From: a bacterium
GTDB lineage: Bacteria; AUK180
Reading direction: 5' to 3'
Length of the DNA: 64,000 nt
Assembly (NCBI GenBank): GCA_023144005.1
Contig: JAGLGN010000006.1
Coordinates: 1 to 64,000, forward strand
Shown here: in pieces, positions 8,489 to 39,998 of the stretch
How the letters are laid out: each line of letters opens with the position of its first letter
Position numbering within the stretch: position 1 is the stretch's first letter
Program-made: the position numbers and the translations under genes
The notes under the pieces: generated by a model
What the model saw: the letters and a program-made list of their open reading frames with translations, nothing else
Told to the model about the DNA's origin: nothing
The model's database searches: none

Positions 8489-8559
8489 AGTGTGCCGTTC
8501 CATAAATACCATAACAATGGCTGATGCTATCGCATCCCATATTCATGGAACAGCACGCT
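8489..8559. mobile_element. 71-bp mini-derivative of the 273-bp TIR element
   Basis: Left end AGTGTGCCGTTCCATAAATA and the reverse complement of the right end (AGCGTGCTGTTCCATGAATA) match at most positions. The interior keeps CAATGGCTGATGCTAT, the sub-terminal block of the larger elements. Dinucleotide TA lies at both outer ends, as expected for a TA-targeting transposition system. It sits about 20 bp upstream of the leuS start and overlaps the leuS leader. Confidence 0.7.
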
Positions 8560-8618
8560 AATTTATCAATATTCTACAAAATCCGCAAGGAAAATCCCTG
8601 CGAGGTCAGAAATGTATC

Positions 8619-9014
8619 TTACTCTGCGGCTACCAGGACCTCTTCACGATCCTTCCATGCAATTACGCCGAGAATGATCAGATTCACTATTGGTATGAGG
8701 AATAAAAGGAACCATATTGGGGGATAATTTCTTCTTTTGAGTATTTCTATCCAGACCATGATCCCGAATACTATGTTCGCTATAGGAACAAATATTATCA
8801 TAGCGATCCACCACATTGGTTTCTGGGCGATCATTATCATAAGTACAAGATTCAATATCGGTATCCAGGCGAACCATGCGTTTTCAGTATTGGTCTTTTT
8901 AGCGATGGTCTGAAGGACCAGTGCCATATACACATAGAGAACAATTGACAATAACCAAGAAAATGCTACTGTTCCTGCTGCCAATCCTGCTGCTGCTACA
9001 TCAACTTCGTTCAT
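8619..9014 (-). CDS. DUF5684-type small membrane protein
   Basis: The 131-residue product has hydrophobic segments near residues 18-40, 47-65, 68-90 and 103-120. It also has the conserved-looking core AWFAWIPILNLVLM and repeated P-[IV]-[LAV]-N motifs. This pattern matches the DUF5684 / signal-peptidase-I-like small membrane family found in several uncultured phyla. No catalytic residues are recognised and the function is unknown. A good promoter (9035-9063) and a Shine-Dalgarno AGGAGG lie just upstream, so it is likely monocistronic. The C-terminus is cytoplasmic-like and charged (WKDREEV). Confidence 0.65.
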   Translation of the reverse strand: MNEVDVAAAGLAAGTVAFSWLLSIVLYVYMALVLQTIAKKTNTENAWFAWIPILNLVLMIMIAQKPMWWIAMIIFVPIANIVFGIMVWIEILKRRNYPPIWFLLFLIPIVNLIILGVIAWKDREEVLVAAE

Positions 9015-9034
9015 AAAACCTCCTGATTCATATT

Positions 9035-9063
9035 ATTTTAAGGTATTATGAGTTTTTTTGCAA
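9035..9063 (-). promoter_or_regulatory. Sigma70-type promoter for the DUF5684 gene
   Basis: On the minus strand TTGCAA (-35, 9058-9063) is separated by 17 nt from TAAAAT (-10, 9035-9040), about 20 nt upstream of the start codon. Read by eye. Confidence 0.55.
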
Positions 9064-9142
9064 GCGATTTAACGGAGAATACGGGAGGCGAAATACTCCA
9101 CATGGCCACAATCGGACCCCGGATTGAGATGTATGCCGGAAA

Positions 9143-9171
9143 TTGAATTCTTCTTACATAAATGCTATATT
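9143..9171 (+). promoter_or_regulatory. Sigma70-type promoter for the OsmC-family gene
   Basis: TTGAAT (9143-9148), 17-nt spacer, TATATT (9166-9171), then TAGGAGG and the ATG at 9194. Confidence 0.55.
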
Positions 9172-9193
9172 CCCCTATAATTAGGAGGTAAAA

Positions 9194-9586
9194 ATGCCAA
9201 CAATAAAAACCGTAAACAAAGGTGATTTGCTTGCTGAGACTATCATAGGGAACCACAAGGTTCTAACTGACCTGCCCGAAAGCTGGGGAGGAAAAGACAG
9301 AGGACCCTCTTCTACCGACCTTCTCGTGGCATCGCTCAGTTCTTGTATAATGGGAATTGTGGCTAACTACTGTAAACAGGCAGAGCTTGACGCTACAGGT
9401 ATCGAAATTGAAATTTCCTTTGACTATGCCACAGATCCCATGAAGCTTGTAAATATCCACCCGCATATTTCCCTGCCTAATGAAGAATTAAAAAAGCGAA
9501 AGAACGCCATTCTAAATGCCGTAGAAGTCTGTCCCGTCCATACCACCATTTGCGAAACTGATAATATCACGGTTACAGTTGGATAA
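9194..9586 (+). CDS. OsmC/Ohr-family protein
   Basis: The 130-residue length fits small OsmC-like proteins. The two family cysteines are present: one in SLSSC (about residue 56, after GPSSTDLLVASL) and one in VCPVHTT (about residue 115). In this family they reduce organic hydroperoxides or act on other electrophiles. The Shine-Dalgarno TAGGAGG is 7 nt upstream. It stands alone with its own promoter. It is closer to YhfA/OsmC-like proteins than to typical Ohr, so the natural substrate is unclear. Confidence 0.85.
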   Translation: MPTIKTVNKGDLLAETIIGNHKVLTDLPESWGGKDRGPSSTDLLVASLSSCIMGIVANYCKQAELDATGIEIEISFDYATDPMKLVNIHPHISLPNEELKKRKNAILNAVEVCPVHTTICETDNITVTVG

Positions 9587-9780
9587 TCACTGAGAGAATT
9601 CGGGATTCGCAAGTTTGAATATTCAAAGGCATACGGGTTGAGAAATAACAAGTCGAGGTTTGTTGTAGAATGGGAAAAAGAAACACACTGTTTTCATTTT
9701 CTATCCTATTCTTTCTGCCTCCTTTCTTCTAATTGTTAACGGCAATTGTATTTTACGCTTGCGCACTGGCCCTCATCGTT
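9587..9780. other. Non-coding spacer
   Basis: The spacer between the OsmC gene and the leaderless promoter of the next gene. No convincing gene, RNA fold or repeat is seen. Confidence 0.4.
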
Positions 9781-9808
9781 TTGCAAATTTTCGGCTAAGT
9801 GTTATAAT
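9781..9808 (+). promoter_or_regulatory. Promoter predicting a leaderless mRNA
   Basis: TTGCAA (9781-9786), 16-nt spacer, TATAAT (9803-9808). The ATG of the next gene begins only 5 nt after the -10 box, so transcription should start at or next to the A of the start codon. No Shine-Dalgarno is present. Confidence 0.6.
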
Positions 9809-9813
9809 CACAT

Positions 9814-10191
9814 ATGCATTGCATTATCTGTCAAACACCATTATTTGATAAGAAAGCTTACAAAAGCCAGAGTCACAAAAAATACATAAAATGTCCCGGA
9901 TGCGGAAATGTCTTCAAAATACAAGTGCCAAAGGAGATCCATATGCTCTTTCTATTTGTTATTGCAGGAATAGTTATCTGGATCTATAAGGGAGAACACA
10001 ATCTGAGTCAGGCGGCGATGAAGATATTTTCGGGGGTCGTATTCTCAAATGTCCTCTCATTTGCCATTGCGCCGCTAATGGCTTCATATGATTTCTCTCG
10101 GCTCGAATTGATACACATCGATGATCCTTCGGAAATTTCAGCATCAAAATATTTCAATTTCAAGAAGAAAAAGAAATCCAAAGATAATTGA
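9814..10191 (+). CDS. Small zinc-ribbon membrane protein, function unknown
   Basis: The 125-residue product opens with a Cys cluster, HCIICQTP (C-x2-C) and CPGCGN (C-x2-C near residues 28-31), a likely zinc ribbon. One or two hydrophobic segments follow (residues 44-58 and about 72-90) and a Lys-rich tail (KKKKKSKDN). This looks like a membrane-anchored zinc-ribbon protein with no recognised family. The promoter geometry suggests leaderless translation. The next 600 bp downstream are repeat elements. Confidence 0.6.
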   Translation: MHCIICQTPLFDKKAYKSQSHKKYIKCPGCGNVFKIQVPKEIHMLFLFVIAGIVIWIYKGEHNLSQAAMKIFSGVVFSNVLSFAIAPLMASYDFSRLELIHIDDPSEISASKYFNFKKKKKSKDN

Positions 10192-10221
10192 TTTATTGCA
10201 CGATATAGATTAAAATTAATA

Positions 10222-10797
10222 AGTGTAGTGTTTCATAATTAGCTTGATAATGGAATGCTTAGATTTAAGTCAATTCCGACGTACAATGAGCGCGGTGTAC
10301 CCTTTGTGGTACATAAGCGAAGAGAAAGGAATAAATTGACCAAAGATGGGATTCCCTTCGGGCTGAAGCTCTTTTTCCGTCTTCTGCGTTGCTAGTGCTC
10401 TTTTTCATAAATACGATGGCAATGGAATGTTTCGATTTGAGTCAATTCCAACGAACAATAAGCGCGGCGTACCCTTTGTGGTCCGTAAGCGGAGAGAGAG
10501 GAAGAAATTGACCAAAGATGATATTCCCTTCGGGCTGAGGCTCTTTTTCTGTCTTCTGTGTTGCTCGTCGCTTACATACCGCTGTGGGTATGCGACGATC
10601 CTCGCTCTTAGAATCCAGAACAAAATAGCATCAGCCATTGTTACCGTATTTATGAATCAGAGCACTCATTGCTTACATACCGCAGTGGGTATGCGGCGTT
10701 CCTCACGCCTCGAATACGGAATAAAATTGCATCAGCCATTGTCCAGCCAATTATAAAACACTTCACTATAGTGTAGTGTTTTGTGATTCAGAGCACT
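10222..10797. mobile_element. Older TIR element copy split by a younger copy
   Basis: The left part (10222-10393) and right part (10667-10768) belong to one element with 32-bp TIRs (10222-10253 and 10736-10767, 27 of 32 matching). At 10393/10667 the sequence resumes exactly where intact copies continue (cgttgct | cattgcttacat), so an intact copy at 10394-10666 was inserted with no obvious loss. A further TIR-like remnant (10769-10797) follows. It forms a near-perfect 14-bp palindrome with the preceding end, centred at 10768/10769. Confidence 0.75.
10394..10666. mobile_element. Intact 273-bp TIR element, nested copy
   Basis: Left end AGTGCTCTTTTTCATAAATA and right end TATTTATGAATCAGAGCACT are inverted repeats. 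The inner sequence matches the copies at 17366, 39504 and 41198 over the full length, including the hairpin-like blocks gtaccctttgtggt and cataccgctgtgggtatg. Open frames exist on both strands but differ between copies only as expected of drifting repeats. No transposase is encoded, so it would be non-autonomous. Confidence 0.85.
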
Positions 10798-10809
10798 AAG
10801 CGGGGCTTT

Positions 10810-12039
10810 ATGAAAAGATCAATATTGCTACTTTGCCTGTTTTCATTGCTTATCGTCTTTGCTGATAATAAAATTCCGGCAGCATTTATCGACCTGCAAG
10901 AAGGAAATGCCGTGAATAAAGGATTGGTACTTACCATCTCCGATTATTTCCGTACTCAATTGGTCAATAGGGGGAAGTACCTGATAGTTTCACGCGAAAG
11001 TATGGAAGATATCTTGAAGGAACAGCAGTATCAGATATCCGGATGTACCAGTCAGGAATGCCTCGTACAAATGGGTAAGGTTCTCGGAGTAAGGAGTATG
11101 TTCGTGGGAACCCTTGGCAAGGTCGGTTCGATCTTTCTTCTCAATATCAAGCTCATCAGCGTTGAGACCGGAGAGATCATCGAGGCCACATCGGCGGAAG
11201 CGGCTTCCGAAGAAGCGCTTTTGGAAAAGATCAGGCATATGGCGGATGAGCTCAGCGGCATTGAGACCGCGCCTGCATTCATGACCTCTCCGATCACTGC
11301 TGCACCGAAGAAGGCCACAACGGGCGATGTGCCCAAGTTCAAGGGACACAACTTCCTGATATTCACATACGGCATCGGCGGCGGCTCGATGAGGTTGAAT
11401 TTCAGCAATACCAATGACGAGATACTTAAATCGCATCTTGGGATAACCGGGACTTTTTCCGACCCCTTTGATAATATTGAATGGCGGCATTTGAAAGCTG
11501 ATATCTCACTCCCGCTTTCTCTGAAGATCGGCGGTGTTTTCGCCTTTGAAGGGAAAAAGGGATATCCCGGCCTTACCGTAGAGATCTTCTATCAGAATAT
11601 GGATATCATCGCCCAGGAAACTGCCGTTTATGTTAACGGCTACGATGTGGGAACCACCGTATTTGTCTATGACAGTTATTTCTCCATAGGAATGCTTGCG
11701 GTGGATGTTCAGATCGTATATTATTATGAAATGGCAAAAGCCGTATCAATTTACGGCGGAGCTGGCTTCGGAATGACAATGAATATGTGGCGATCCGATC
11801 ATATACTCGGTTATACAACGGGAAGCGGATCATTTGAATCTCCTGTATCCGGGTATTCCACGGGATTAATGGTGCATCTCCCATTGGGAATAATGGCAGA
11901 GATCGGACAATTTAAATTAATGGTGGAATGGGGATTCTGGGCAACTCTCTTCACATTCACACGAAATGTGGAAGATGAAGAGGATACAGCCGACATCCTG
12001 GTCCCGCTGCTGAAATTCGGAGTGGGAGCGAAATTCTGA
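10810..12039 (+). CDS. Exported protein: CsgG/TolB-N-like domain plus beta-barrel-like C-terminus
   Basis: A signal peptide (MKRSILLLCLFSLLIVFA) begins at 10810. Residues about 20-150 resemble the CsgG/FlgO/LpoB-type alpha/beta fold: a conserved-looking start IPAAFIDLQEG, then YLIVSRESMEDILKEQQ and GTLGKVGSIFLLNIKLISVETGE. The part after about residue 190 is rich in alternating aromatic and Gly residues and ends in FGVGAKF, like an outer-membrane beta-barrel. An in-frame GTG at 10783 lies in the flanking repeat end but would place nine residues before the signal peptide, so 10810 is preferred. About 409 residues. The function is unknown. It is probably an outer-membrane envelope protein. Confidence 0.65.
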   Translation: MKRSILLLCLFSLLIVFADNKIPAAFIDLQEGNAVNKGLVLTISDYFRTQLVNRGKYLIVSRESMEDILKEQQYQISGCTSQECLVQMGKVLGVRSMFVGTLGKVGSIFLLNIKLISVETGEIIEATSAEAASEEALLEKIRHMADELSGIETAPAFMTSPITAAPKKATTGDVPKFKGHNFLIFTYGIGGGSMRLNFSNTNDEILKSHLGITGTFSDPFDNIEWRHLKADISLPLSLKIGGVFAFEGKKGYPGLTVEIFYQNMDIIAQETAVYVNGYDVGTTVFVYDSYFSIGMLAVDVQIVYYYEMAKAVSIYGGAGFGMTMNMWRSDHILGYTTGSGSFESPVSGYSTGLMVHLPLGIMAEIGQFKLMVEWGFWATLFTFTRNVEDEEDTADILVPLLKFGVGAKF

Positions 12040-12070
12040 GAGACCGGAGAATTTAGGTATATAATAAGCA

Positions 12071-12922
12071 ATGAACATCAAAGACTCGGACATCACGATC
12101 AGATTTGCAGATGTTTCCGACAGATCGGGAATTGAAGAGATCTCGTCAAAGACGTGGGATGGTGACGATTATCTCGCTGCTGCATTTGAGGAATTCCTCA
12201 AAGACGGTTATTTTTATGTCCTTATGTACAAAAATAAGGTCGCCGGTTGTGCGAAGATGACTCTTTTTCCGGAACACATTCTTTGGCTGGAGGCATTGCG
12301 AATTCATCCTGACTTTCAAGGCAGGGGATTCGGCCGCGATCTATATAATTTCTGTACTGAGATCGGAATAGCCATGATACGTGATGGAAAGATCAGCGCG
12401 ATGGAGTTCTCAACCTATTACACGAATTACGGCTCGATCGCAATGGGCGAAAAGGGCGGGTTCAGCGTGATCGAAAAGCTCTTCGTCCTCACCTATGAGC
12501 TTAAGGCAAATGAGGAATTCACGGAGCCGAAGCCAATGAGACCTGAATATTCCCAATATTCCAAATGCCGTGGACACATCCCCATCGGCTGGCATTTTGT
12601 CAAGAACTCAGAAGCTTCAATGCAATATATTGTCGATAATACCAAAGGATATGAGACGGACGGGATTTACTTCCATCTGGCACAGCCGTATAATTCATGT
12701 TATTGCCCTGAGCTTGATGTCAATAATTTCAAAATATTCCAAAAGGCGCTTAACTTCGTTTTCAAAGGTGAGGGCCATTATGAGATAATGGTGGAGGACA
12801 GCAAGGCAGCCCTTGTTCCCCATTTACTGAAAGCGGGTTTTCAATTCTGGGAAGAGCCGAAAGAACCAAATGTCATCATCTACGGACACAGCGGCAAGAG
12901 TGAGCAGAAAAATAGAGGTTAG
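12071..12922 (+). CDS. GNAT-family N-acetyltransferase
   Basis: The 283-residue protein carries an N-terminal GNAT domain with the acetyl-CoA loop HPDFQGRGFGRDLY (Q-G-R-G-x-G, near residue 80). The C-terminal half is a second GNAT-like region of unknown substrate. TATAAT at 12060-12065 lies just 5 nt upstream of the ATG and no Shine-Dalgarno is seen, so the mRNA may be leaderless, although no good -35 is visible. The last codons and the stop (TAG, 12920-12922) lie inside a 7-bp tandem array, so the extreme C-terminus (NRG) may be repeat-derived. Confidence 0.85.
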   Translation: MNIKDSDITIRFADVSDRSGIEEISSKTWDGDDYLAAAFEEFLKDGYFYVLMYKNKVAGCAKMTLFPEHILWLEALRIHPDFQGRGFGRDLYNFCTEIGIAMIRDGKISAMEFSTYYTNYGSIAMGEKGGFSVIEKLFVLTYELKANEEFTEPKPMRPEYSQYSKCRGHIPIGWHFVKNSEASMQYIVDNTKGYETDGIYFHLAQPYNSCYCPELDVNNFKIFQKALNFVFKGEGHYEIMVEDSKAALVPHLLKAGFQFWEEPKEPNVIIYGHSGKSEQKNRG

Positions 12923-12935
12923 AGGCTCGAGGTTA
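12915..12935. repeat. Three-unit 7-bp tandem array overlapping the GNAT stop
   Basis: Units GAGGTTA, GAGGCTC, GAGGTTA in exact period 7. The TAG stop of the GNAT gene is made from the first unit. Confidence 0.7.
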
Positions 12936-12963
12936 GTGCAGAAAAGAAATAAAATCCGTCTCT

Positions 12964-13075
12964 CTCATTCTTTATCCCTCATCCTTCATTTCCCCGCTTG
13001 TCACTTGTGCTCTTGTTGCTTGTGCCCTGCGAAGCGTGTTCCACTGGGTCCACTTGTTCCTGGGTCCACTGCGAA
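12964..13075. repeat. Period-7 to period-9 degenerate tandem arrays between convergent genes
   Basis: First CTCATTC, TTTATCC, CTCATCC, TTCATTT (12964-12991, period 7). Then CTTGT cores at 12997, 13004, 13012 and 13019. Then ccactgggt / ccacttgtt / cctgggt / ccactg. This block lies between the GNAT and CPBP protease stops. Similar text recurs at 39124 and 41690. Confidence 0.65.
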
Positions 13076-13124
13076 GCTTAACTTATAAACAATCTTTGCT
13101 ACATCACACGAGAATGCTTCGCGT

Positions 13125-13811
13125 TCACATATAGATCAAATAGACTGCCATTATACCGATATCGGCAAGGAAATGGCTGATGACAGGTGCGTAAATAGAT
13201 CGATAATGTAATCTCATATGGCCAAAAAAGATCCCTGAAAGAAAGATCGAAGCGGAAAAAAGGACAGCGGAAGTCGAGGCGAATAATATGCTTGTGGTTA
13301 CAATGTGATGAAGTGTAAAAAGGCCACTGGAAAACAAAAGAGCTCTTCGGGGCCCAAAGAAATACCTCAATCCGCCAAGGACATATCCCCTCCAGAAGAA
13401 TTCTTCCACAGTAGCGTTGGCAATAGTCATGAATACCAGGAATAATACAATATTCGAATCCGTTACTCCCCATTTGGATGTAAGCTCCAGTATCCCTTCC
13501 ATATCCAATACGCTGCTTCCGAAGATCCTGAAGAAGATGAAGATAACGGCGAACATTGCCGCTCCCGTAACAAGGCCGGGAAGGAGGGCCCTTTTAAAAT
13601 TGTGAAGAGCAATGATTCGGGAAAATGAAAAGTCGAAACCCCTTGGGAAAATATGAAAAAAAGGCACAAGCAGACATAGGAAGATATGATATCCGATAAA
13701 AGTTATCCAGACATTTCCGATATATTTCAAAGAAAAATAGATCCAGAAAGAAGCGGAAAGCGCGGATAATATGATTACGAACAGGTCTTTGGGAGGACTT
13801 TTTCTACTCAA
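13125..13811 (-). CDS. CPBP-family intramembrane metalloprotease
   Basis: The 228-residue multi-pass protein has the family motif VEEFFWRGY (E-E-x3-R), then FTLHHIV and later SHFLADI. These are the Glu/His metal-binding motifs of CAAX/bacteriocin-processing type (Abi) proteases. The apparent start is TTG at 13811, because no ATG or GTG exists in frame upstream. A short upstream ORF with a good RBS (ATG at 13844, about 11 codons) ends overlapping this TTG, which hints at translational coupling or a sequencing frameshift. The substrate is unknown. Confidence 0.75.
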   Translation of the reverse strand: MSRKSPPKDLFVIILSALSASFWIYFSLKYIGNVWITFIGYHIFLCLLVPFFHIFPRGFDFSFSRIIALHNFKRALLPGLVTGAAMFAVIFIFFRIFGSSVLDMEGILELTSKWGVTDSNIVLFLVFMTIANATVEEFFWRGYVLGGLRYFFGPRRALLFSSGLFTLHHIVTTSILFASTSAVLFSASIFLSGIFFGHMRLHYRSIYAPVISHFLADIGIMAVYLIYM

Positions 13812-13862
13812 TCCAAAATTCCATTCCCGCCAAACGATGACATCAACAACTCCTCTATTTTT

Positions 13863-13891
13863 AGTTTAAAGGAGTTTCAATATTTTGTCAA
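13863..13891 (-). promoter_or_regulatory. Sigma70-type promoter for the CPBP protease gene
   Basis: On the minus strand TTGACA (13886-13891), 17-nt spacer, TAAACT (13863-13868). It lies back to back with the plus-strand promoter at 13903. Confidence 0.55.
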
Positions 13892-13902
13892 ATCCATGCT
13901 TC

Positions 13903-13930
13903 TTGACAAATACCCACTTTATAGTAAAAT
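13903..13930 (+). promoter_or_regulatory. Sigma70-type promoter reading through the repeat into the ferredoxin gene
   Basis: TTGACA (13903-13908), 16-nt spacer, TAAAAT (13925-13930). The 145-bp element at 13952 lies between it and the gene, so the element would form the 5' leader. Confidence 0.55.
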
Positions 13931-13951
13931 ATACCGATGGAAAAAGGGGCC

Positions 13952-14096
13952 AGTGATCTGATTCAGAAATACGACAACAATGGAATGTTTAGATTTGAGT
14001 CAATTCCAACGAACAATGAGTGCGGCGTTCCTCGCTCCTTTCATGCTGAACAAAATAGCATCAGCCATTATCAGGGTATTTATGAATCAGAACACT
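13952..14096. mobile_element. Internally deleted 145-bp TIR element
   Basis: Left end AGTGATCTGATTCAGAAATA and right end TATTTATGAATCAGAACACT are TIRs. The interior jumps from gagtgcggcg to ttcctcgctcc, losing about 130 bp of the middle. The right TIR supplies the apparent start codon of the gene at 14082. Confidence 0.8.
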
Positions 14097-14942
14097 AAGA
14101 TATTTTATTTTACAGGAACCGGAAACACCGCCATCCTTGCTGGACTTTTTCAAAAGCAATTCGAAAAAGCGAATATAGCCGCTGAGCTATTTCCGACAGA
14201 GGAGATCTTGAACAGCGGGAAGCTCCCATCTTTGAGCAATTGCTATATCCTTCTAGGATTCCCCGTGCATGCCTTCAATGCGCCGCCCAATGTATTTGAC
14301 TTTGTTCACCGCCTTCCCCCGGGAATGGGGAAGAAGATCATCCTCTTCAAGAATGCCGGGGACCCTATGAAGAACGGAGCTTTCACATGGGTGAAGAAAG
14401 TATTGAGAAAAAAAGGATATATCATCTCCTATGAGGCGTCTTTTGTTATGCCGTCAAATACATTTTTGAAATACCCGCCCGGATTATCTTATGACCTCTA
14501 TCTTACAGCGAAACTAAGAATAGCAAGTATGGTCAAAGAAATAATTGACGGAAAATGTGCTCATGTGAAAAGCAGTTTTGTTATTGATATCCTCGCAAAG
14601 CTCTTTATTACATTTAAAGGAAAAGGCACGAAGTATTTCGGCAGAAAAATAGAGCTAAGCAAGAGTAAATGCTTAAAATGCGGACAATGCGCGGCATCTT
14701 GCCCTGTAAATAATATCATACAAAATATGGACGGGTATCCGGTCTGGGGAACAAAGTGCGCCCTCTGTATGAGATGTATGTATATCTGCAAACAGGACGC
14801 CATCAGGCCGGGATATTTAAAATTCTTTAGGATCGCTTCGGGGTATAATGCGATTGATATGATGACCCCAAGTATTGATGCCTTACCATATAAAAGCCGA
14901 TTAATAGAACGCATACACAGACATACCGTTAAATATCTTTGA
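14082..14942 (+). CDS. EFR1-type flavodoxin-like ferredoxin (two 4Fe-4S)
   Basis: The 286-residue protein has an N-terminal flavodoxin-like domain beginning IFYFTGTGNT (FMN phosphate loop) and a C-terminal di-cluster ferredoxin. The Cys motifs are CLKCGQCAASCP and CALCMRCMYIC, the pattern of the EFR1 family of electron-transfer proteins. The first residues M-N-Q-N-T are encoded by the right TIR of the element at 13952-14096. The family core starts immediately after it, so the insertion likely replaced the native start. No Shine-Dalgarno is seen. The electron partner is unknown. Confidence 0.85.
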   Translation: MNQNTKIFYFTGTGNTAILAGLFQKQFEKANIAAELFPTEEILNSGKLPSLSNCYILLGFPVHAFNAPPNVFDFVHRLPPGMGKKIILFKNAGDPMKNGAFTWVKKVLRKKGYIISYEASFVMPSNTFLKYPPGLSYDLYLTAKLRIASMVKEIIDGKCAHVKSSFVIDILAKLFITFKGKGTKYFGRKIELSKSKCLKCGQCAASCPVNNIIQNMDGYPVWGTKCALCMRCMYICKQDAIRPGYLKFFRIASGYNAIDMMTPSIDALPYKSRLIERIHRHTVKYL

Positions 14943-14959
14943 CTGAAACTAATCGTAAA

Positions 14960-15883: not shown

Positions 15884-16724
15884 GTCCAATATCTCTCAGT
15901 AATTTCATTGCGGTTCTAAGGCCGTCACCGGCCGCGATACCCGCCTGCCTGAAAAGGCCGTTCACTATATCGCCGCAAAAATATATCCCGCTTTGCTTAA
16001 TATCAGGTCTATATAATGGGGAGGGTTTTCTGCCGCATGCCAATAGGATGTGATCAAAATCCATGGCAAAATTATCGTCACCCTTCACACGCAGACATAT
16101 CTTGCCGTGATCACAGAGCGAGATGCCGGCAATTTCGATCCCTATGTGTATGTCAATATTCTCACACCTTACTACTTCGTTCTGAAGAAGCGGCAGGGCA
16201 GTGGAAATAGAACGCTGAACGATATGTACTTCATTTCCCCTTTCTTCAAGGGTCAAGGCTTGATCATAAGCCGCGTCACTGCCCCCGATAATACAAATGC
16301 GCTGGGCGGTCAGCAGCATCTCGCTTACATTATAATGAATGTGTGTGTCGGGAAGGTCCTTGAGGCCCTGGATGTTCGGGATTACCGGAACCGTGCCCGC
16401 GGCAATAATAACATTACTGCTCACATATTCCTCTGATATACTTTTTAGTATCCACTCGCCCTCATGCTTGGAAAGATCAATGATATCGTCCTTAACAAAG
16501 GGAATGCGCATCTCATCGAACGCCTCTACCAACCGTCCTGCGACCTCCTCTCCTTTGAGAGGCGGCATACCGGGGAAATTCTCGACATTCCAGCCATTGG
16601 ATATCAATCCTCCCGGCAGGGCTTTCTCCACAACCAACACTTCCAATCCGCTGCGTTTTAATTGAACAGCAGCGGAAAGGCCCGCGGGACCTGCGCCAAC
16701 GACCACTATCTGAGTGAAGATCAT
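15867..16724 (-). CDS. Thioredoxin-reductase-like FAD/NAD(P)H oxidoreductase lacking CxxC
   Basis: The 285-residue flavoprotein has an FAD loop VVGAGPAGLSAA at the N-terminus, a second dinucleotide loop CIIGGSDAAYDQ near residue 145, and a C-terminal GDIVNG (FAD ribityl site). This is the TrxB fold. In thioredoxin reductase a C-x2-C pair sits just before the NADPH domain, but here that stretch reads HYNVSEMLLTA with no cysteine. It therefore more likely works as a flavin reductase, for example ferredoxin-NAD(P) reductase-like, passing electrons to a partner. It overlaps the hydrolase gene upstream by 4 nt and the radical SAM gene downstream. Confidence 0.8.
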   Translation of the reverse strand: MIFTQIVVVGAGPAGLSAAVQLKRSGLEVLVVEKALPGGLISNGWNVENFPGMPPLKGEEVAGRLVEAFDEMRIPFVKDDIIDLSKHEGEWILKSISEEYVSSNVIIAAGTVPVIPNIQGLKDLPDTHIHYNVSEMLLTAQRICIIGGSDAAYDQALTLEERGNEVHIVQRSISTALPLLQNEVVRCENIDIHIGIEIAGISLCDHGKICLRVKGDDNFAMDFDHILLACGRKPSPLYRPDIKQSGIYFCGDIVNGLFRQAGIAAGDGLRTAMKLLRDIGHAPSN

Positions 16725-17380
16725 AGGAGCTCCTTTGAAAGAGGTGTTAAACCGAAGGCGAATGAGGCATTTTTCAAGGTGTTCTCATGTAATTTTCTCG
16801 TATATGCCGCTGTGGTATCTATCGGAATAACGGGAAGAATATCCCGTACAAATGCTGAACGCGCAGACTGCTCCACGCAGAGGTTCGTCATTACTCCGCA
16901 GATCACCAACTGAGTGACATCACCTGCTCTCAATATTTTCTCCAGATCTGTATTATAGAACGGGTCGTAAGTGCTCTTGTGTATAATGTGCATTAATGGG
17001 ATATCTGCCTTGCTGATCTCAGATATTTCAGATATGAAAGCAGAGGAAGCATCATCCATCTTTCTTCGCCACCATTTCCCCATATTGATGCCGCTGTCTT
17101 CAATGTGTTTTGTAAGAATGATCGGAAGCGAATGCTCGTTATAATATTTAATAAGATCCTTTACCTTAGAAATAATTGATGGGGCGGAAGGGATAAAGGC
17201 ATGGGATTCGGGTGAAAAAAAATATTCCTGCATATCCACAATGAGCAGAGCGGAACTATCCATTTGCAATAATGCGGACCTGTCTGGAGAATGCGCAAGA
17301 ATAGTGTTTTTTATCTCTAATGAAACCTTGTCAATGATAGATGATGTGAAATACAATTCCCTCTTAGTGTTCTGATTCAT
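16721..17380 (-). CDS. Isochorismatase-like cysteine hydrolase
   Basis: The 219-residue protein has the cysteine-hydrolase triad: Asp in LIVDMQEYF, Lys in IIHKSTYDPF, and Cys in GVMTNLCVE, in the order expected for nicotinamidase/isochorismatase relatives. About 45 residues precede the domain. The apparent ATG (17380) and first five codons (M-N-Q-N-T) are part of the TIR of the element at 17366-17638. No Shine-Dalgarno is visible. A secondary start is Met about 40 residues in. It is first in a three-gene operon with the flavoprotein and RlmN-like genes. The substrate is unknown. Confidence 0.8.
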   Translation of the reverse strand: MNQNTKRELYFTSSIIDKVSLEIKNTILAHSPDRSALLQMDSSALLIVDMQEYFFSPESHAFIPSAPSIISKVKDLIKYYNEHSLPIILTKHIEDSGINMGKWWRRKMDDASSAFISEISEISKADIPLMHIIHKSTYDPFYNTDLEKILRAGDVTQLVICGVMTNLCVEQSARSAFVRDILPVIPIDTTAAYTRKLHENTLKNASFAFGLTPLSKELL

Positions 17381-17638
17381 AAATATGGTGACAATGGAAT
17401 GTTTAGATTTGAGTCAATTTCAACAAACAATGAGGGCGGTGTACCCTTGGTGGTACATAAGCGAAGAGAGAGGAAGAAATTTACCAAAGATGATATTCCC
17501 TTCGGACTGATGTTCTTTTTCTGTCTTCTTCGTTGCTCGTTACTTACATACCGCAGTGGGTATGCTGCGCTCCTCGCGCCTTGAATACGAAGCAAAATAG
17601 CATCAGCCATTGTTCCCATATTTATGATTCAGATCACT
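17366..17638. mobile_element. Intact 273-bp TIR element between the redox operon and apgM
   Basis: Left end AGTGTTCTGATTCATAAATA and right end TTTATGATTCAGATCACT pair over about 32 bp with few mismatches, both ending in ACAATGG-type blocks. Full-length match to the copies at 10394, 39504 and 41198. The left TIR encodes the first codons of the isochorismatase-like gene on the minus strand. Confidence 0.85.
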
Positions 17639-17664
17639 TGTAAATCCCATCATCTCACTATGAT

Positions 17665-17682
17665 GAAAAAGGCCAGCGGCCT
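17665..17682 (-). terminator. Intrinsic terminator after apgM
   Basis: On the minus strand AGGCC-GCT-GGCCT followed by T5. The stem begins within the apgM stop codon (17681-17683). It would end transcription of the ribosomal run. Confidence 0.65.
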
Positions 17683-18886: not shown

Positions 18887-18892
18887 TTGAAC

Positions 18893-29058: not shown

Positions 29059-29067
29059 ATATTTCTC

Positions 29068-29439: not shown

Positions 29440-29449
29440 CTATAATCTC

Positions 29450-29897: not shown

Positions 29898-29902
29898 TTT
29901 CC

Positions 29903-30307: not shown

Positions 30308-30318
30308 AATATTCCTCT

Positions 30319-30966: not shown

Positions 30967-30975
30967 AATTACCTC

Positions 30976-31317: not shown

Positions 31318-31327
31318 ATACATCTCC

Positions 31328-31606: not shown

Positions 31607-31615
31607 ATGATTCCC

Positions 31616-32446: not shown

Positions 32447-32456
32447 ATCTGTTCTC

Positions 32457-32747: not shown

Positions 32748-33370
32748 AGTTCCATCCTTTTATCCAGATCAGTGATGGCATCCTTGGTAAAGACGATCTT
32801 GTCAAAATAGAGAAGATCGAAAACATTGAGATAATTCTGTGAAACCCATTTGGTATTCTCAAGATTTCTGATGGAAAGATCCAGATTCGTATCCGGAAGC
32901 TCTACAACAAAAAGAGATTTTGCGGGAAGATTCAATGATTTTTTCAGTCCTGCCATCTCTTTTGTCTTGGGTTTATCCAAAACAAGTTTATCCAATATTA
33001 TGAAGTCTTCAAATCTTGATGTGAGCGCGGAGATCAAAGCTTTGCGTCTGATCTTCTTGTTCAATTTGATAGAAAAATCTCTCTGTTTCTTGCCAAAAGC
33101 AACACCGCCGCCGGTTCTAATATTTGTCCTTTTGCGGCCCATTCTGGCATTACCGGTACCTTTCTGTCTGAAGATCTTCTTATTGGAGCCCTTCACCATA
33201 GCACGGCTTTTCGTGACCGCGGTGCCCGCCCGCCTTGCATTCATATATGCTCTTACGGCAAGCTGCATCAATGTGTCACTTATTTCGCCCTTGAAGATCT
33301 CATCCTTTACCTTGATCTTGTCTATTTCCTGGCCTTCTCTGTTGATTACTTTGATTTCAGCCATGATCAC
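32744..33370 (-). CDS. rplD: 50S ribosomal protein L4
   Basis: 208 residues. KGSNKKIFRQKGTGNARMG and RTGGGVAFGKKQRDFSIKLN are the conserved L4 loop. It overlaps rplC by 4 nt. E. coli L4 represses the S10 operon, but no leader was recognisable here. Confidence 0.96.
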   Translation of the reverse strand: MIMAEIKVINREGQEIDKIKVKDEIFKGEISDTLMQLAVRAYMNARRAGTAVTKSRAMVKGSNKKIFRQKGTGNARMGRKRTNIRTGGGVAFGKKQRDFSIKLNKKIRRKALISALTSRFEDFIILDKLVLDKPKTKEMAGLKKSLNLPAKSLFVVELPDTNLDLSIRNLENTKWVSQNYLNVFDLLYFDKIVFTKDAITDLDKRMEL

Positions 33371-34044
33371 ACCTCAATATTCTGAAGATATACAACGCCG
33401 TTGATAGCCCCGGGAACTCCGCCCTTGACTAAAACAACGTTCTTTTCAGGAATTACATCAATTATCGGTATCTTTTTCAAGGTAACCTTCTGCACACCCA
33501 TATGGCCGGGCATCTTCTTTCCCTTCAGGATCCTGGAAGGGGAAGCACACATTCCAACAGAACCGGGAGCTCGATGAAAATGTGAGCCGTGGCTTGCGGG
33601 GCCGCCGGCGAAATTGTATCTCTTCATGACACCCTGAAAACCTCTTCCTTTGGAGGTTCCGACTATCGTGACCACATCATTCACCTTCAATGCTTCTACA
33701 TCGACCTGGTCTCCGGGAGCGTATTTCTCAGGATCCGTGACCCTGAATTCTTTCAATACGCTGAAAGTGAAAAGTTTATCGGTATTTCTTTTTTTGATCT
33801 CCTTTTCAATATCTTCCCTGGGCATTCCGAAGGCCTTCATAATATGAACAAGCACCGGTTTTGTTCCTCTGAACCATTTATTTCTCACCGAACCCATCTG
33901 AACGGCATCATAGCCGTGCGTTTCACGTTTCTTTATCTCGATAACGTAGTTAGGTTCGATCTTGATTACGGTAACGGGAATACTGACACCATCTCTGAAG
34001 ACCTGTGTCATTCCCACTTTTTTTCCGATCAGTCCGACTTTCAT
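33367..34044 (-). CDS. rplC: 50S ribosomal protein L3
   Basis: 225 residues. GLIGKKVGMTQVF start, and GRGFQGVMKRYNFAGGPASHG then PGHMGVQKVT. Standard length. Confidence 0.97.
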   Translation of the reverse strand: MKVGLIGKKVGMTQVFRDGVSIPVTVIKIEPNYVIEIKKRETHGYDAVQMGSVRNKWFRGTKPVLVHIMKAFGMPREDIEKEIKKRNTDKLFTFSVLKEFRVTDPEKYAPGDQVDVEALKVNDVVTIVGTSKGRGFQGVMKRYNFAGGPASHGSHFHRAPGSVGMCASPSRILKGKKMPGHMGVQKVTLKKIPIIDVIPEKNVVLVKGGVPGAINGVVYLQNIEV

Positions 34045-34057
34045 TTGTAACTACTCC

Positions 34058-34372
34058 TCACTTTGTTAACTTGATCTTGACCTCTACGCCGGCAGGCAGT
34101 ACAAGTTTATTCAGGACCTCAACGGTCTTAGGACTGTATTCCACTATATCGATAAGTCTTTTATGTATCCTTATCTCAAATTGTTCTCTGGATTTTTTAT
34201 CAATGAAGGGTGAGCGGAGAACCGTGTACCTTGAAACCCTTGTAGGCAGTGGTATCGGTCCGGCCATTTTCCCTTCACTTCTCTTCAGTTCCTTTATGAT
34301 CTGTTGTGCGGTCTTATCAAGTATTCTATAATCGTATGCACTTAAATATATTCTTACTCTATCCAATGTCAA
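34058..34372 (-). CDS. rpsJ: 30S ribosomal protein S10
   Basis: 104 residues. RVRIYLSAYDYRILD start and GPIPLPTRVSRYTVLRSPF mark S10. Here tuf is joined directly to rpsJ with a 5-nt gap, so str and S10 clusters form one operon. Confidence 0.97.
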   Translation of the reverse strand: MTLDRVRIYLSAYDYRILDKTAQQIIKELKRSEGKMAGPIPLPTRVSRYTVLRSPFIDKKSREQFEIRIHKRLIDIVEYSPKTVEVLNKLVLPAGVEVKIKLTK

Positions 34373-34377
34373 CTCCT

Positions 34378-35571
34378 TTATTCGTGGATCTTGCCAACAA
34401 CGCCGGCACCAACGGTCCTGCCGCCTTCACGAACGGCGAAACGCTGACCTATCTCCATTCCGATAGGTTTGATCAACTCGACCATAATGGTGAGGTTGTC
34501 ACCGGGCTTGACGATCTGAACATTCTCAGGAAGCGTGATCGATCCCGTAACATCTGTGGTTCTGAAAAAGAATTGAGGACGATATCCCGTAACAAACGGT
34601 TTATGGCGTCCGCCTTCCTTTGCGGTCAGAACATAGATATTCGCGTCGAACTTCGTGTGAGGGGTGATGCTCTTGGGCTTGGCCAAAACCTGGCCGCGCT
34701 CTACATCAACCTTGTTTACGCCTCTTAACAATACTCCGACATTCTCGCCGGCACGGCCTTCGTCAAGAAGCTTTCTGAACATCTCAACACCGGTCGCGAC
34801 AGTCTTCCTCGTCTCGCGGAGGCCGACTATCTCAACATCCTCTCCGACCTTGATAACGCCTCTCTCAACACGGCCGGTTACAACCGTACCTCTTCCCGTG
34901 ATAGAGAAAACATCTTCGATCGGCATAAGGAAAGGTTTATCCAATGGCCTCTCAGGATCAGGTATGGAGTTATCCATAGCGTCTAATAGTTCCTGAATAC
35001 ATTTATAAGCGTCTGAATCAGCATCATCAGATTCGCCGGCTTTCAAAGCGCTGCCCTGTATAACAGGAACATCGTCGCCGGGAAATTCATACTGGTTCAG
35101 AAGATCTCTTACATCCATCTCTGACAGCTCGATCATCTCAGGATCATCGACCATGTCGACCTTGTTCAGGAAAACGACAATGTAGGGTACATTGACCTGA
35201 CGGGCCAGCAAAATGTGCTCTCTCGTCTGGGGCATGGGGCCGTCCGCTGCTGAAACAACAACGACAGCACCGTCCATCTGAGCGGCACCGGTGATCATAT
35301 TCTTGATATAATCAGCATGTCCGGGACAGTCAACATGAGCATAATGACGCTTCTCTGTCGAATACTCAACATGAGCTGTATTGATCGTAATTCCCCTTGC
35401 TTTCTCTTCCGGGGCCTTATCGATCGCATCAAACGGCGTATAATCCGCCATCCCCTTGAGATGCAGATATTTAGTGATCGCCGCAGTTAACGTGGTCTTT
35501 CCATGATCAACGTGGCCTATTGTGCCGACATTGACATGTGGTTTAATTCGTTCAAATTTTTCCTTAGCCAT
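34378..35571 (-). CDS. tuf: Elongation factor Tu
   Basis: 397 residues. GTP motifs GHVDHGKT (19-26), DCPGH and NKVD are present, and the C-terminal [18 protein letters not shown]. It delivers aminoacyl-tRNA to the ribosome. A single copy is seen in this window. Confidence 0.98.
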
Positions 35572-35594
35572 AAGTTCCTCCTAATTTAAATTTT

Positions 35595-37667
35595 CTAGAA
35601 AGAGTATCCCTGTAAAAGCTCTTTCTGTTCACCCGGCGGCAGCGGCCTGAATTCCATGAATTCAAGATTAATATTGCCGCGTCCCTGGGTAAGGGAGCGA
35701 AGTTCCGTAGTGTATTTAAACATCTTGCTCAGCGGTATTGCGCCCTTAATGATCTTCAATGCTCCCTTGGGGATAACATCCCTCACTGTAGCACCCTTGG
35801 AGTTGATGGAGTTGAATACATCTCCAAAATACTCCTCGGGGGCGTAGAGCTCGAATTTCATATAGGGTTCAAGCATAACGGGCTTCCCTCTTTGCAGCCC
35901 GTTCATGACACCGTTGGATAACGCCATCTTGTACAGGGTTACATTCAGGTTCTCACTTCCAGTCACCAGTTCTCTGATGATGAGTTTGACTCCCATTAAT
36001 GGATAACCGCTTAATACACCTACGGATAACAGGTTCTCGGCAGCCTCTTGGAGTTCTCTTACAAAAGTCCTGTGAAATTTATCATTGAGCTTTTTCAATG
36101 ACATCTCCACACGATTCTTATCGTTGTCTTCCAGTGGCTCGAGATCAATAATGATCTCGGCACTTCCCATTTCATTGGCAACCTTCCCTCTGATGCCGTA
36201 AACGGCTTCAGAAATAGATTCCCGGAATGAAACCCTGGGTTTGCCCGATTTCACATCGATCTTTGCTTCTCTAAACAGACGGTCTAGAATGATCTCCAAA
36301 TGCAATTCTCCCATACCGTAAATGATCAATTGCCCTGTCTCCTCACTTTCCCTGAAGGCAAATGAGGGGTCTTCGAACTTATAATCCTCAAGGATACTGA
36401 TCAATTTGTCGTAGTCCTTATTGGATCGAGGTTCAATGGCAAGTGATATAACGGGTTTCGGGACTTCAATAACATCCAGCACCAATGGGAAGTCGGGGGT
36501 AGATAAGGTATCTGCCGTTTTAGAGAACTTCAAGCCGGCAATGCCGACGAAATTCCCCGCAAAGGCTTCTTCTATCTCCTTTTTCGAATTGGCGTGCATC
36601 TGGAAGATCTTAAGGACCTTCTCCTTTTTCCTGCTCACGTCGTTAAAGATAACCTGTCCGCGTTTCAAAGAGCCTGAATAGATCCTCACGAAGGACAATT
36701 TGTCCAAAAAAGGATCCTTCATAATTTTGAACACATAGCCTAAAAAACTATTATGTTCCAGGGGGTTAATGTTAACCCTTTCATTGTTCCTGGGATCGAC
36801 ACCATTCAATGATGCAATATCCGCAGGGGAAGGCAGAAAGTCTACTATCCCGTCAAGGAGCGGGAGGATTCCCACATTCTTCAATGCAGAACCGGTCAGT
36901 ACCGGAATTAGCTTCCGGCTCAAAACCAGGTCTCTGAAGGTTGCTTTGAAGTCATCCTGGGAAATTTCTTCGCCTTCAAGGTACAGAGCCAGTAGATCCT
37001 CATTATTTTCAACCACGCTTTCAATGAGTATCTTTCGCCTGGATTCTACCTCATCCTTGATATCATCCGGAAGTTCGGAAGTGGCGGTCAATTCGCCCCC
37101 TTCGTCTTCCCGGTGTAACAAATTTCTTGTAAAAAGATCAATGACCCCGTAAAGTTTCTCATCCCTATAATAAGGAATGTTGACGGCCACGGGATCTACA
37201 GAAAACTTTTTTCTGATGTCGTCAATGGCAAATACATAATCCGCTCCGGCTCGGTCAAGTTTGTTAATACAGACCAGCCTCGGAACATTGAACTTATCGG
37301 CTTGGTGCCAGACGGTTTCGGATTGGGGCTGTACTCCCGCAACTCCATCAAATATAACGACCAGGCCGTCAAGTACCCTAATGGCCTTCTCCACCTCAAG
37401 TGTGAAGTCCACATGGCCGGGAGTATCAATAATGTTTATCTGATGCTCCTTATAATAGGTCGTGGTGACCGCGGATTGTATCGTTATTCCGCGCTCTCTC
37501 TCCTGGTCCATCCAGTCCATCTGGGTGGTGCCGTAGTCCACTTCCCCTATCTTATGGGTTTTGCCAGTAAAAAAAAGAACTCGTTCGGTGGTAGTGGTCT
37601 TACCCGCGTCTATATGGGCTATGAAGCCTATATTCCTAATTGCCGGACCGGATAACTCTCCTACCAT
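35595..37667 (-). CDS. fusA: Elongation factor G
   Basis: 690 residues. G1 AHIDAGKT (residues 17-24), G3 DTPGH, G4 NKLD. The switch region DYGTTQMDWMDQERERGITIQSA and GVQPQSETVW are near-canonical. Promotes ribosomal translocation. Its location between rpsG and tuf argues for the main EF-G. No recycling-specific paralogue is seen here. Confidence 0.96.
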   Translation of the reverse strand: MVGELSGPAIRNIGFIAHIDAGKTTTTERVLFFTGKTHKIGEVDYGTTQMDWMDQERERGITIQSAVTTTYYKEHQINIIDTPGHVDFTLEVEKAIRVLDGLVVIFDGVAGVQPQSETVWHQADKFNVPRLVCINKLDRAGADYVFAIDDIRKKFSVDPVAVNIPYYRDEKLYGVIDLFTRNLLHREDEGGELTATSELPDDIKDEVESRRKILIESVVENNEDLLALYLEGEEISQDDFKATFRDLVLSRKLIPVLTGSALKNVGILPLLDGIVDFLPSPADIASLNGVDPRNNERVNINPLEHNSFLGYVFKIMKDPFLDKLSFVRIYSGSLKRGQVIFNDVSRKKEKVLKIFQMHANSKKEIEEAFAGNFVGIAGLKFSKTADTLSTPDFPLVLDVIEVPKPVISLAIEPRSNKDYDKLISILEDYKFEDPSFAFRESEETGQLIIYGMGELHLEIILDRLFREAKIDVKSGKPRVSFRESISEAVYGIRGKVANEMGSAEIIIDLEPLEDNDKNRVEMSLKKLNDKFHRTFVRELQEAAENLLSVGVLSGYPLMGVKLIIRELVTGSENLNVTLYKMALSNGVMNGLQRGKPVMLEPYMKFELYAPEEYFGDVFNSINSKGATVRDVIPKGALKIIKGAIPLSKMFKYTTELRSLTQGRGNINLEFMEFRPLPPGEQKELLQGYSF

Positions 37668-37675
37668 TTTTCATA

Positions 37676-38149
37676 TTACCAATTATAATGCGCAAATGCC
37701 TTATTGGCTTCTGCCATTCTATGTGTATCATCTTTCTTCTTTACAGTGGCGCCTTTATTGTCCAGAATATCCAGGAATTCACCTGTGAGCTTCTCGGTCA
37801 TGGTGTGCCCTGAGCGTTTTCTTGAAAAGGAAATGATCCATCTCATCGCCAATGCTGTTGAGCGTTTCTTGTTGACCTCGATAGGTATTTGATAATTGGT
37901 ACCACCAAGCCTTCTGGATTTAACTTCCACATGGGGCCTGATCTTCTCTATAATCGTTTCAAATATCTCCAAGGCACTTTTCCCCGTTTTCTTCTCCAAA
38001 GCTTCCAGTGTTCCGTACACGATCTTGGTGGCGGTACTTTTCTTACCGTCCATCATTATCATATTGATAAATCTGGCCAAAAGCCTCGAATTGTACTTGA
38101 AATCAGGGTTAAGTCCGTATTTAAGTTTCTTAAAAGGTTTCCTTGACAT
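37676..38149 (-). CDS. rpsG: 30S ribosomal protein S7
   Basis: 157 residues. [18 protein letters not shown] and [21 protein letters not shown] (part of the tRNA E-site arm) are typical. Only 2 nt separate it from rpsL. Confidence 0.97.
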
Positions 38150-38151
38150 AA

Positions 38152-38535
38152 TTACACCTTGCTTTTCTTGGGCTTTTTGGCCCCGTATTTTGATCTTCCC
38201 CGTCTGCGTTCTTCGACACCAGCAGCGTCATATTTTCCGCGGATGATATGATATCTTACTCCGGGAAGATCTTTCACTCTACCACCCCTGATAAGGACAA
38301 CATGATGCTCTTGGAGTTCATGGCCTTCGCCGGGAATATATGCAGTTACTTCAATACCGTTCGTTAATCTTACCCTTGCGACCTTTCTCAGTGCTGAGTT
38401 AGGTTTCTTAGGGGTTCTTGTCGACACCCTCAGGCAGAATCCTCTTTTCTGAGGTGAGTTCTGCAATGCCGGTGACTTCGACTTTTTCTTCGACTTTTTC
38501 CTGCCATTTCTGAGCAGTTGGTTTATAGTAGGCAT
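38152..38535 (-). CDS. rpsL: 30S ribosomal protein S12
   Basis: 127 residues. [17 protein letters not shown] and [13 protein letters not shown] hold Lys at the two positions that are mutated in classic streptomycin resistance, so the sequence is of the sensitive type. First gene of the ribosomal run. The C-terminus is Lys-rich. Confidence 0.97.
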
Positions 38536-38602
38536 TGTTCCTCCTCTTTTTGCAATTTATCGTTCAAACAGCCTATTTATTTTTCTACGCAACAAAAAAG
38601 AT

Positions 38603-38630
38603 ATTTTACCAGTTTTATTTTGAAAGTCAA
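38603..38630 (-). promoter_or_regulatory. Promoter of the ribosomal operon
   Basis: On the minus strand TTGACT (38625-38630), 16-nt spacer, TAAAAT (38603-38608), leaving a leader of about 60 nt before the rpsL ATG at 38535, with AGGAGG near the start. It appears to drive at least the str part of the run. Confidence 0.6.
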
Positions 38631-38985
38631 GTATTTATGGGAGATTAATGAATAAATAATTGGCTTAAAATGGTGCCGTCGGGATATATTACTTCCTATC
38701 TATATACACATTGGGCATATTCTCGCTTATTAATTATTATTTACCAATATCCGCATCCGTAGCCGAAAAGCCAATATTCGTTCAAGTAGCGAATGTCGTA
38801 CCTTAAGGGAGGGATTCCCCGCTTTCGCGGGAATGAAGAGAAGAAGGCAGAATTGCAGAAAACAGATGTGAAGAATGTTCCGTTTAATTCTAAACATTGC
38901 GTAGAGTGTACAATTGCTACGCAATTTTCAACTCTCCGCTTGGTACTTTTACATCGGGACAGTCGAACGCCTGCGGCGTACGGCA

Positions 38986-39076
38986 TGTCCCCTATCTTGG
39001 TTGGGGTACGGCGTGATATGATTGTATCAGTAGAATGAATGGTTTAAGCGAAATATTGATTTTCCGTTACGGATGT
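38986..39076. repeat. Copy 1 of a 90-bp dispersed repeat
   Basis: Begins TGTCCCCTATCTTGGTTGGG with a CCCC...GGGG hairpin, continues through cggcgtga...gattgta to the end motif ttttccgttacggatg. Clearly related to 45029-45120 and, in its second half, to 41572-41648. Confidence 0.7.
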
Positions 39077-39123
39077 GTTTCTTTTCCATTTCCCCACTTG
39101 TGCCTTGTGCTCTTCTCCCTGTT

Positions 39124-39155
39124 CCACTGGGCTACTGGGTCACTGGGTTACTGGG
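39124..39155. repeat. Four 8-bp tandem units
   Basis: CCACTGGG, CTACTGGG, TCACTGGG, TTACTGGG, exact period 8, differing only at the first two bases. It ends about 19 bp before the pseudogene stop. Confidence 0.75.
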
Positions 39156-39173
39156 AAGCGCGTACCCGCTTCG

Positions 39174-39998
39174 CTATCCCCAATTGATATCAAATTCAGT
39201 TATATCATCTCCTTTGGTAAGAGACTTGGTGACCTTGACAGAAAGGTCTTTGACCCCGGTCATCATCATGGCGGTATGTATCCATCCGTGGATTCCGGGT
39301 TCTATATATTTGTTCATATCCTGAAAATCGATGATCTGTACCTTGGCGGAGTTCTTTTTCAGCTCTACTGTCTGCATCGCGGAAGGTTTATAATAGGATG
39401 GGAAAATAACGCTTGCTTTTTTGATGATGAAGGAAGGGCTTCCCATTTTCACAAAGATCTTGTAAATACCTGTCAAAGCGAATTCGGCGCTGAAGATGCC
39501 TAAAGTGTTCTGATTTATAAATACGATGACAATGGAATGTTTAGATTTGAGTCAATTCCAACGAACAATGAGCACGGCGTACCCTTAGTGGTACGCAAGC
39601 GAAGAGAGAGGAAGAAATTGACCAAAGATAAGATTCCCTTCGGACTGATGCTCTTTTTCTGTCTTCGGCGTTCCTCGTCCCTTACATACCGCTGCGGGTA
39701 TGCAGCGCTCCTCGCGCCTTGAATACGGAATAAAATAGCATCAGCCATTGTTGCCGTCTTTATGAATCAGATCACTATCATAGGTCACTTGCATATCTCC
39801 ATTACAAAGCTTCTCTACGATGGCCTTTGTGGGTATAGTAACGGCATCTTCCATAGAATACCACGCTCCCACGAAGGGGTTCTCCAGGATCTCTCTTGAT
39901 CTTTCAGGCAGAGAGGCATACCATTCATCATATTTATTCGGATAATGTTTCTTGACATATTCCCTTAAGGGAAGAACCGCCGCGCCTTTTACTTCCAT
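39174..39998 (-). pseudogene. TIGR02265/DUF2378-like gene interrupted by a TIR element
   Basis: The N-terminal part (39998 to about 39777) reads MEVKGAAVLPLREYVKKHYP then ASLPERSREIL and QVTYD, with GAGGAG upstream. The C-terminal part (39503 to 39174) reads LGIFSAEFALTGIYKIFVKM, then GSPSFIIKKASVIF and an end GDDITEFDINW. Together they match the layout of the TIGR02265/DUF2378 family of Myxococcus-type proteins, with the hallmark LG-x-FSAE-x-x-L-x-G. A 273-bp element lies exactly between them. Removing it joins the halves in frame (Y-D-L-G). The truncated first half would end with repeat-coded residues SDLIHKDGNNG. Function unknown. Confidence 0.75.
39504..39776. mobile_element. Intact 273-bp TIR element inside the DUF2378-like gene
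   Basis: Left end AGTGTTCTGATTTATAAATA and right end TTTATGAATCAGATCACT are TIRs. Full-length match to 10394 and 17366. The left end is followed on the minus strand by ATA-AAT-CAG-AAC-ACT in frame with the second gene half, where other copies have ATG. Confidence 0.88.

Follow-up and report, generated by a model that had tools for sequence, protein, structure and literature searches.

Short mobile elements are known to supply stop codons to bacterial genes. The ends of QMITE1 and QMITE2 of Coxiella burnetii give stops and a few C-terminal residues to ubiB, recN, ruvB, and mutT, and their authors state that no QMITE alters the 5′ end of any gene of known function (PMC5896051). BOX elements of Streptococcus pneumoniae provide stops for 36 genes, and boxC can give a start, with no good Shine-Dalgarno (SD) sequence (PMC3049150). 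Rickettsia palindromic elements (RPEs) are mobile palindromes that lie in frame and are translated inside host proteins (reviewed in PMC10969869), while the enterobacterial RU elements form the N- or C-terminal part of annotated open reading frames (ORFs), as RU-2 does in YP_0349 (PMC2759123). The authors of MITEAba12 remark that its terminal start codons and a few residues could fuse with neighbouring coding sequences (PMC6382973). Here we analyze a repeat with terminal inverted repeats (TIRs) that was noticed in a 64,000-nucleotide stretch of bacterial DNA (the window), which is part of contig C35 of the 2.67-Mb draft genome G000, from an uncultured genus, and we compare it with the genome of a congener, G001. 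Comparison of the sequences indicates that about ten genes of G000 have very probably taken the ATG of this element as their start in place of their own.

The supply of stops is common to the QMITEs and the present element, whereas start supply to conserved genes would be found only in the latter. The starts attributed to BOX concern only short ORFs without homologues and come with no empty-site comparison, while the genes considered here are conserved. An RPE is an internal translated insert; in our case only the last five codons would be translated, as a new N-terminus, and the upstream frame is closed or without a start codon in most cases. RU elements have long parts translated, with doubtful function, while the present element would supply five codons, and the remark on MITEAba12 concerns a consensus, while we deal with actual genes and a second species. 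A literature search, made mostly outside subscription journals, returned no direct case of start codons supplied by insertion sequences, nor any supply of starts to conserved genes traced in two species. Stop supply by such elements was known before; start supply to conserved genes appears to be new.

The repeat, about 271 bp long, resembles a miniature inverted-repeat transposable element (MITE) and is present in high copy number. Most full copies in G000, as delimited by TIR pairs, measure 272–274 bp, and their imperfect 32-bp TIRs have the outward consensus CCATTGTYATCGTATTTATGAATCAGANCACT; in the copy at 17366–17638 of the window the two TIRs are 88% complementary. The initial annotation had reported that each TIR reads ATG AAT CAG toward its neighbour, and this was borne out: the outward edge pattern TTTATG RAW CAG NNC AC(T) occurs 11 times in the window, where 0.48 matches would be expected, and the ATG is unbroken in 187 of 240 TIR ends, the most frequent peptides being MNQNT, MNQST, and MEQYT. 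Over the whole of G000, the last 18 TIR bases with up to three mismatches give 279 ends versus 3 for a reversed-pattern control. A position matrix of the TIR finds 212 ends and none in the control. The element is present in one of 60 relatives' genomes, that of the congener; a 34-bp match elsewhere falls in the element interior and not in the TIR. Across 84,980 species, in a scan that may omit the window's own genome, the sole match to the exact TIR pattern was the congener metagenome-assembled genome "bacterium isolate RS_12_30."

Empty sites in the congener define the ends of the element. The empty site at rsmE reads AAAGAAC-TA-ATATTTTT in G001, and the filled one in G000 reads AAAGAAC-TA-GTGTACTG...CAGCAC-TA-ATATCTTT, with TA flanking both ends. 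Likewise, ATGGACCCGAATAC-TA-GATTC in G001 corresponds to ATGGACCCAAATAC-TA-GTG...ATGGAACAATACAC-TA-GATTC at C16:95485 of G000. These two sites therefore define the element as GTG...CAC with TA on either side. If AGTG...CACT is taken as the ends no target duplication is visible, as the A and T at the two extremes are part of the TA; the T of the ACT codon in MNQNT thus comes from the target. Short length, many copies, TIRs, a TA duplication, and empty sites are the features of a MITE, no long transposase-type ORF lies between TIR pairs and no parental element was found, and neither PF13358 nor PF01609 has a match in G000 or G001. The repeat is a TA-targeting, non-coding, apparently non-autonomous, MITE-like mobile element. 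Its TA duplication agrees with the IS630/Tc1-mariner MITEs, but we did not assign it to them, as PF13358 (DDE_3-type transposase) is absent from both genomes.

The genes that appear to start at the TIR ATG, with no other good start, code for RNase III (C4:27214), the rRNA methylase RsmE (C11:24923), NamZ (C8:33409), a PflA-like radical SAM protein (C27:21805), a 927-aa protein (C35:191826), a DUF2007 protein (C15:69150), a membrane protein (C16:95485), a lipoprotein (C8:9769), a methyltransferase (C19:2252), and the ferredoxin encoded at 14082 of the window. In six of them (RNase III, RsmE, PflA-like, 927-aa, DUF2007, and C16:95485) no ATG, GTG, or TTG occurs in the open frame that precedes the TIR ATG, nor is there an SD-supported start in the first 25 codons behind it. 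Homology of RNase III with that of the element-free genome G002 starts at residue 6, right behind MNQNT. The empty sites of RsmE and C16:95485 reveal that the insertion hit native 5′ ends. In the congener, a 12-nt in-frame deletion in the TIR before namZ has kept the ATG, giving the start M-K-TGLD, while the sequence upstream was replaced; in G002 NamZ starts M-T-I-S-G-L. The inner TIR of the PflA-like gene is gone from G001 and ATGAATCAGAGC is kept. In neither species does any start but the TIR ATG give the lipoprotein a signal peptide (MNQTTTPLFLFIMAVLLLSSC and MNKSTRLFFLFIVALAMFSSC), and the N-terminus in the congener has gained K and R. In genes with a retained native start, the TIR codon has drifted, being ATT in G000 and ATG in G001 (L277) at C7:16851, and at C30:24154 (L235) the frame has moved by 8 nt. 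From the sequences, frames, empty sites, and conservation we infer that ribosomes initiate at the TIR ATG.

The window itself holds the following copies and neighbouring genes:

6053–8473, minus strand, leuS, with native SD and ATG (8473/8470) kept
8489–8559, minus strand, 71-bp MITE copy before leuS, with its TIR ATG at 8503, in frame
10222–10797, plus strand, tandem/nested MITE array ending before the 10810 gene, with GTG as the TIR codon at 10783
10810–12039, plus strand, secreted protein gene with native ATG at 10810 kept; the empty site in G001 reads ...AATAAGCGAGGCTTTATGAAAAG
13952–14096, plus strand, short MITE copy with its TIR pair 145 bp apart, the right TIR ending at the 14082 gene; same insertion in the congener
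14079–14096, plus strand, TIR end TTTATGAATCAGAACACT, whose ATG at 14082 is the putative start of the EFR1-type flavodoxin/ferredoxin gene
14082–14942, plus strand, 4Fe-4S ferredoxin/flavodoxin-like protein (EFR1-type), 286 aa, MNQNT-KIFYFTGTGN..., with Pfam Fer4 families
16721–17380, minus strand, isochorismatase-like gene (Pfam PF00857) with a TIR ATG at 17380
17366–17638, plus strand, full 273-bp MITE copy with a TIR pair, used as reference
39504–39776, plus strand, full MITE within a DUF2378-like gene, which is split; the second half is at 39521 and the TIR codon is ATA

The initial annotation had stated that all five 5′ ends or coding fragments abutting a TIR (14082, 17380, leuS, 10783/10810, and the second half of the DUF2378-like gene) share its frame, which proved correct, and that by chance this would happen with a probability of 0.4%. 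The latter figure rests on a null of one third and rises to 1.6% with the TA-phase value of 43.6% described below. Its claim that the TIR codon serves as start of neighbouring genes finds good support across the genome, in about ten genes, several of them backed by comparison with the congener, but holds only in part for the window. The 14082 gene is its sole strong case for a likely start at the TIR ATG. The orthologue in the congener (L101) is 88% identical across residues 1–286 and has kept ATGAATCAGAACACA AAG and ATGAATCAGAACACAAAGATATTT, with a 2-nt gap directly upstream of TATTTATG; this gap, just before the TIR ATG, excludes a start inside the element. The 17380 gene, also said to have no other good start or SD, has a TTG with GAGG upstream, 8 codons in, so that the TIR ATG is one possible start and this TTG the other. 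Its element-free homologues begin 4–6 residues ahead of the conserved YFT, which rules out the internal ATG at MDSS as start. At the corresponding site of the congener (L172) a 21-nt palindromic scar, AGTGATCTGAATAAGAACACT, replaces the element, explained by deletion between the two GAATCA repeats of the TIRs, and the gene starts upstream of the scar. For leuS (native GGAGG...ATGATG in G001) and 10810 the in-frame TIR is incidental, the sites being empty in G001 and the element having landed in front of the native start, judging by the sequences. The DUF2378-like frame, of 208 aa and intact in G001, is reduced to 125 aa in G000. Comparison with orthologues lacking the insertion, which the initial annotation had proposed as a check, favours start replacement for RNase III, RsmE, and C16:95485 and native starts for leuS and 10810.

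The other proposed check was a genome-wide frame count. We sampled 721 kb of G000 in stretches around TIR matches, with 240 TIR ends (about 70% of all ends). Genes were called by scoring codon usage and by long open frames, and a concatenated query served for several of the orthologue searches. The three-mismatch matches inside genes at L092:5736, L083:4755, and L037:7482 were dropped as chance, and the apparent outward genes at L092:3264, L050:8871, and L049:434 are antisense to genes ending at the TIR, C11:434 being still in the 36-gene count. An outward coding ORF is open to the edge at 36 of the 240 ends, in frames 21:7:8, where frame 0 is that of the TIR ATG. The congener gave 15:3:7 from 145 ends, and the pooled set without shared insertions 30:10:11. 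Against a null of one third each, p is 0.0018 for G000, 0.0056 for G001, and 0.00017 for the pooled non-redundant set. The count is subject to survivorship, as out-of-frame 5′ insertions wreck the gene and then go undetected. It supports the supply of starts and cannot carry this conclusion alone; the comparison of orthologous sequences is the stronger evidence.

We propose that the element lands in gene 5′ ends, at a TA across two codons (xxT/Axx, the slash marking the codon boundary), which would place the TIR ATG in frame. The TIR, read outward as TTT ATG AAT CAG ANC AC(TA), would then swap the first codons for M-N-Q-N-T or a variant. In-frame insertions would spare the rest of the protein and survive, while out-of-frame ones would destroy the gene. 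TA is in the matching phase in 43.6% of its occurrences within G000 genes; in codons 2–11 of 575 sampled genes 501 TA sites are in the right phase and 692 out (501/1193), so that genes can survive a useful fraction of 5′ insertions. Ribosomes would initiate at the TIR ATG without an SD, in AU-rich surroundings (GUAUUUAUGAAUCAG). AU-rich sequence around a start can suffice for initiation without an SD. Read inward, the edge in turn gives stops (TA/G, the slash marking the element edge), so that overlapping operon genes can be parted and neither lost. Coding ORFs reach a TIR edge in 36 cases, of which 11 end exactly at TA/G (C11:25188, C4:27955, C15:106395, C16:2895, C30:30014, and C35:95862 of G000, among others), six at a TAA lying 15 nt into the element, and another six at a TGA 9 nt into it. 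Reading inward, two frames are closed by TAG or TAA and TGA within 15 nt, and the third, in one orientation, by TGA at 36 nt. In G001 the gene upstream of rsmE has the end AAC TAA and in G000 AAC TA/G, while rsmE takes the TIR ATG at the opposite end, and fabF/rnc is arranged in the same way. With a stop at one edge and a start at the other, the element therefore separates overlapping operon pairs.

Several observations weigh against genes starting at the TIR ATG. There is no SD at this ATG, and the absence of another start is partly a matter of judgement, as TTG or GTG starts are possible in places. Against the TA-phase null of 0.436 the frame bias is marginal (p = 0.054 for G000, 0.074 for G001, and 0.021 pooled), and it is not significantly stronger without an SD-supported native start (25:6:7) than with one (11:4:8). 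The real starts could then be non-ATG or weak downstream codons, the in-frame TIR ATG reflecting TA phase and chance, in agreement with leuS, 10810, C20:56659, C6:4879, and C7:16851, which are in frame and have their own start, and with the TTG and GAGG of the isochorismatase. We consider such a coincidence improbable, as RNase III, RsmE, NamZ, PflA-like, and DUF2007 have no SD start ahead of the conserved domain, and both the frame-preserving deletion of namZ and the upstream-only indel of the ferredoxin speak for the TIR ATG. A further ATG inside the element is also open for the methyltransferase at C19:2252, with 40 open upstream codons containing ATGs in both species, and for Lnt at C1:38261, with 106. 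Longer fusions of the RPE kind, with proteins starting upstream within the element, would agree with these two, but the ferredoxin gap in the congener and the upstream frames without a start codon in RNase III, RsmE, PflA-like, 927-aa, C16:95485, and DUF2007 make this explanation very improbable.

If the TIR ATG is indeed used as a start, it could still be asked how the element came to provide it. That it favours start-codon regions as target we find hardly credible: several insertions are indeed only a few codons away from the native start, but copies also sit at 3′ ends, inside genes, or in other repeats, the target is simply TA, and no special targeting is needed. The initial annotation went further and saw in the element a portable 5′ start module; use of the TIR ATG as a start is what the sequences suggest, but the name is overstated, as the codon phase of TA sites and the survival of in-frame insertions explain the frame bias and there is no sign of the TIR having evolved for this use. 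Shaping of the TIR by selection as a start and stop module that makes insertions harmless, to the element's benefit, would fit the outward ATG followed by A-rich codons, the inward stop codons, and in-frame 5′ insertions that are no rarer than under neutral tolerance (about ten sites, with about 4% of all insertions expected). We give it little credence, as the same letters form the presumed transposase-binding TIR, which would be conserved in any case, no relative came to light that shows the TIR in an earlier state, and TA phase and survival account for the data. The more specific idea of a translational punctuation, with a start outward and stops inward, that lets the element enter packed or overlapping operons (upstream gene/rsmE and fabF/rnc) with both genes functional and the ATG efficient without an SD, is speculative and in our opinion unlikely. 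The pattern looks like selection retaining in-frame insertions and not like a purpose-built device.

On the reading that we prefer, in which genes took over the TIR ATG, mobile DNA has repeatedly replaced the starts of conserved and probably important genes (RNase III, RsmE, and NamZ), with the states before and after both visible. This would explain how the element multiplied in a compact genome without broken operons, and starts without an SD can be studied here as a natural experiment. It also calls for caution with the gene starts annotated in such genomes, which may be wrong.

Copies of the element also occur in other arrangements. Full and partial copies form tandem and nested arrays at 10222–10797 of the window and at C27:15789-16607 of G000, and short head-to-head TIR palindromes, akin to the scar at L172 of the congener, are found at C2:9924 and C28:21685. 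On the upstream sides of L046:12126, L058:9208, L071:3501, and L034:3501, solo TIR ends are fused to the short repeats CCTCTAGCCTCTA, CACTTGTGCTCTTGTCACTTGTGC, and CACTTCACACTTC; solo ends and other short repeats make up a mosaic of repeat families in the DNA between genes. Seven copies (C2:49632, C13:166372, C15:124172, C16:112927, C23:4692, C25:79405, and C35:41198) have both flanks identical (CGTCCCTGGAGAAT and TGGGTGGGTGGAGGG) and therefore either sit nested within a larger repeat or belong to it; the last of them lies in the window:

41198–41469, plus strand, full MITE copy with ends GGTG...CACT, inside the larger repeat

Between MITE copies, positions 17681–39000 of the window are a long stretch of minus-strand genes.

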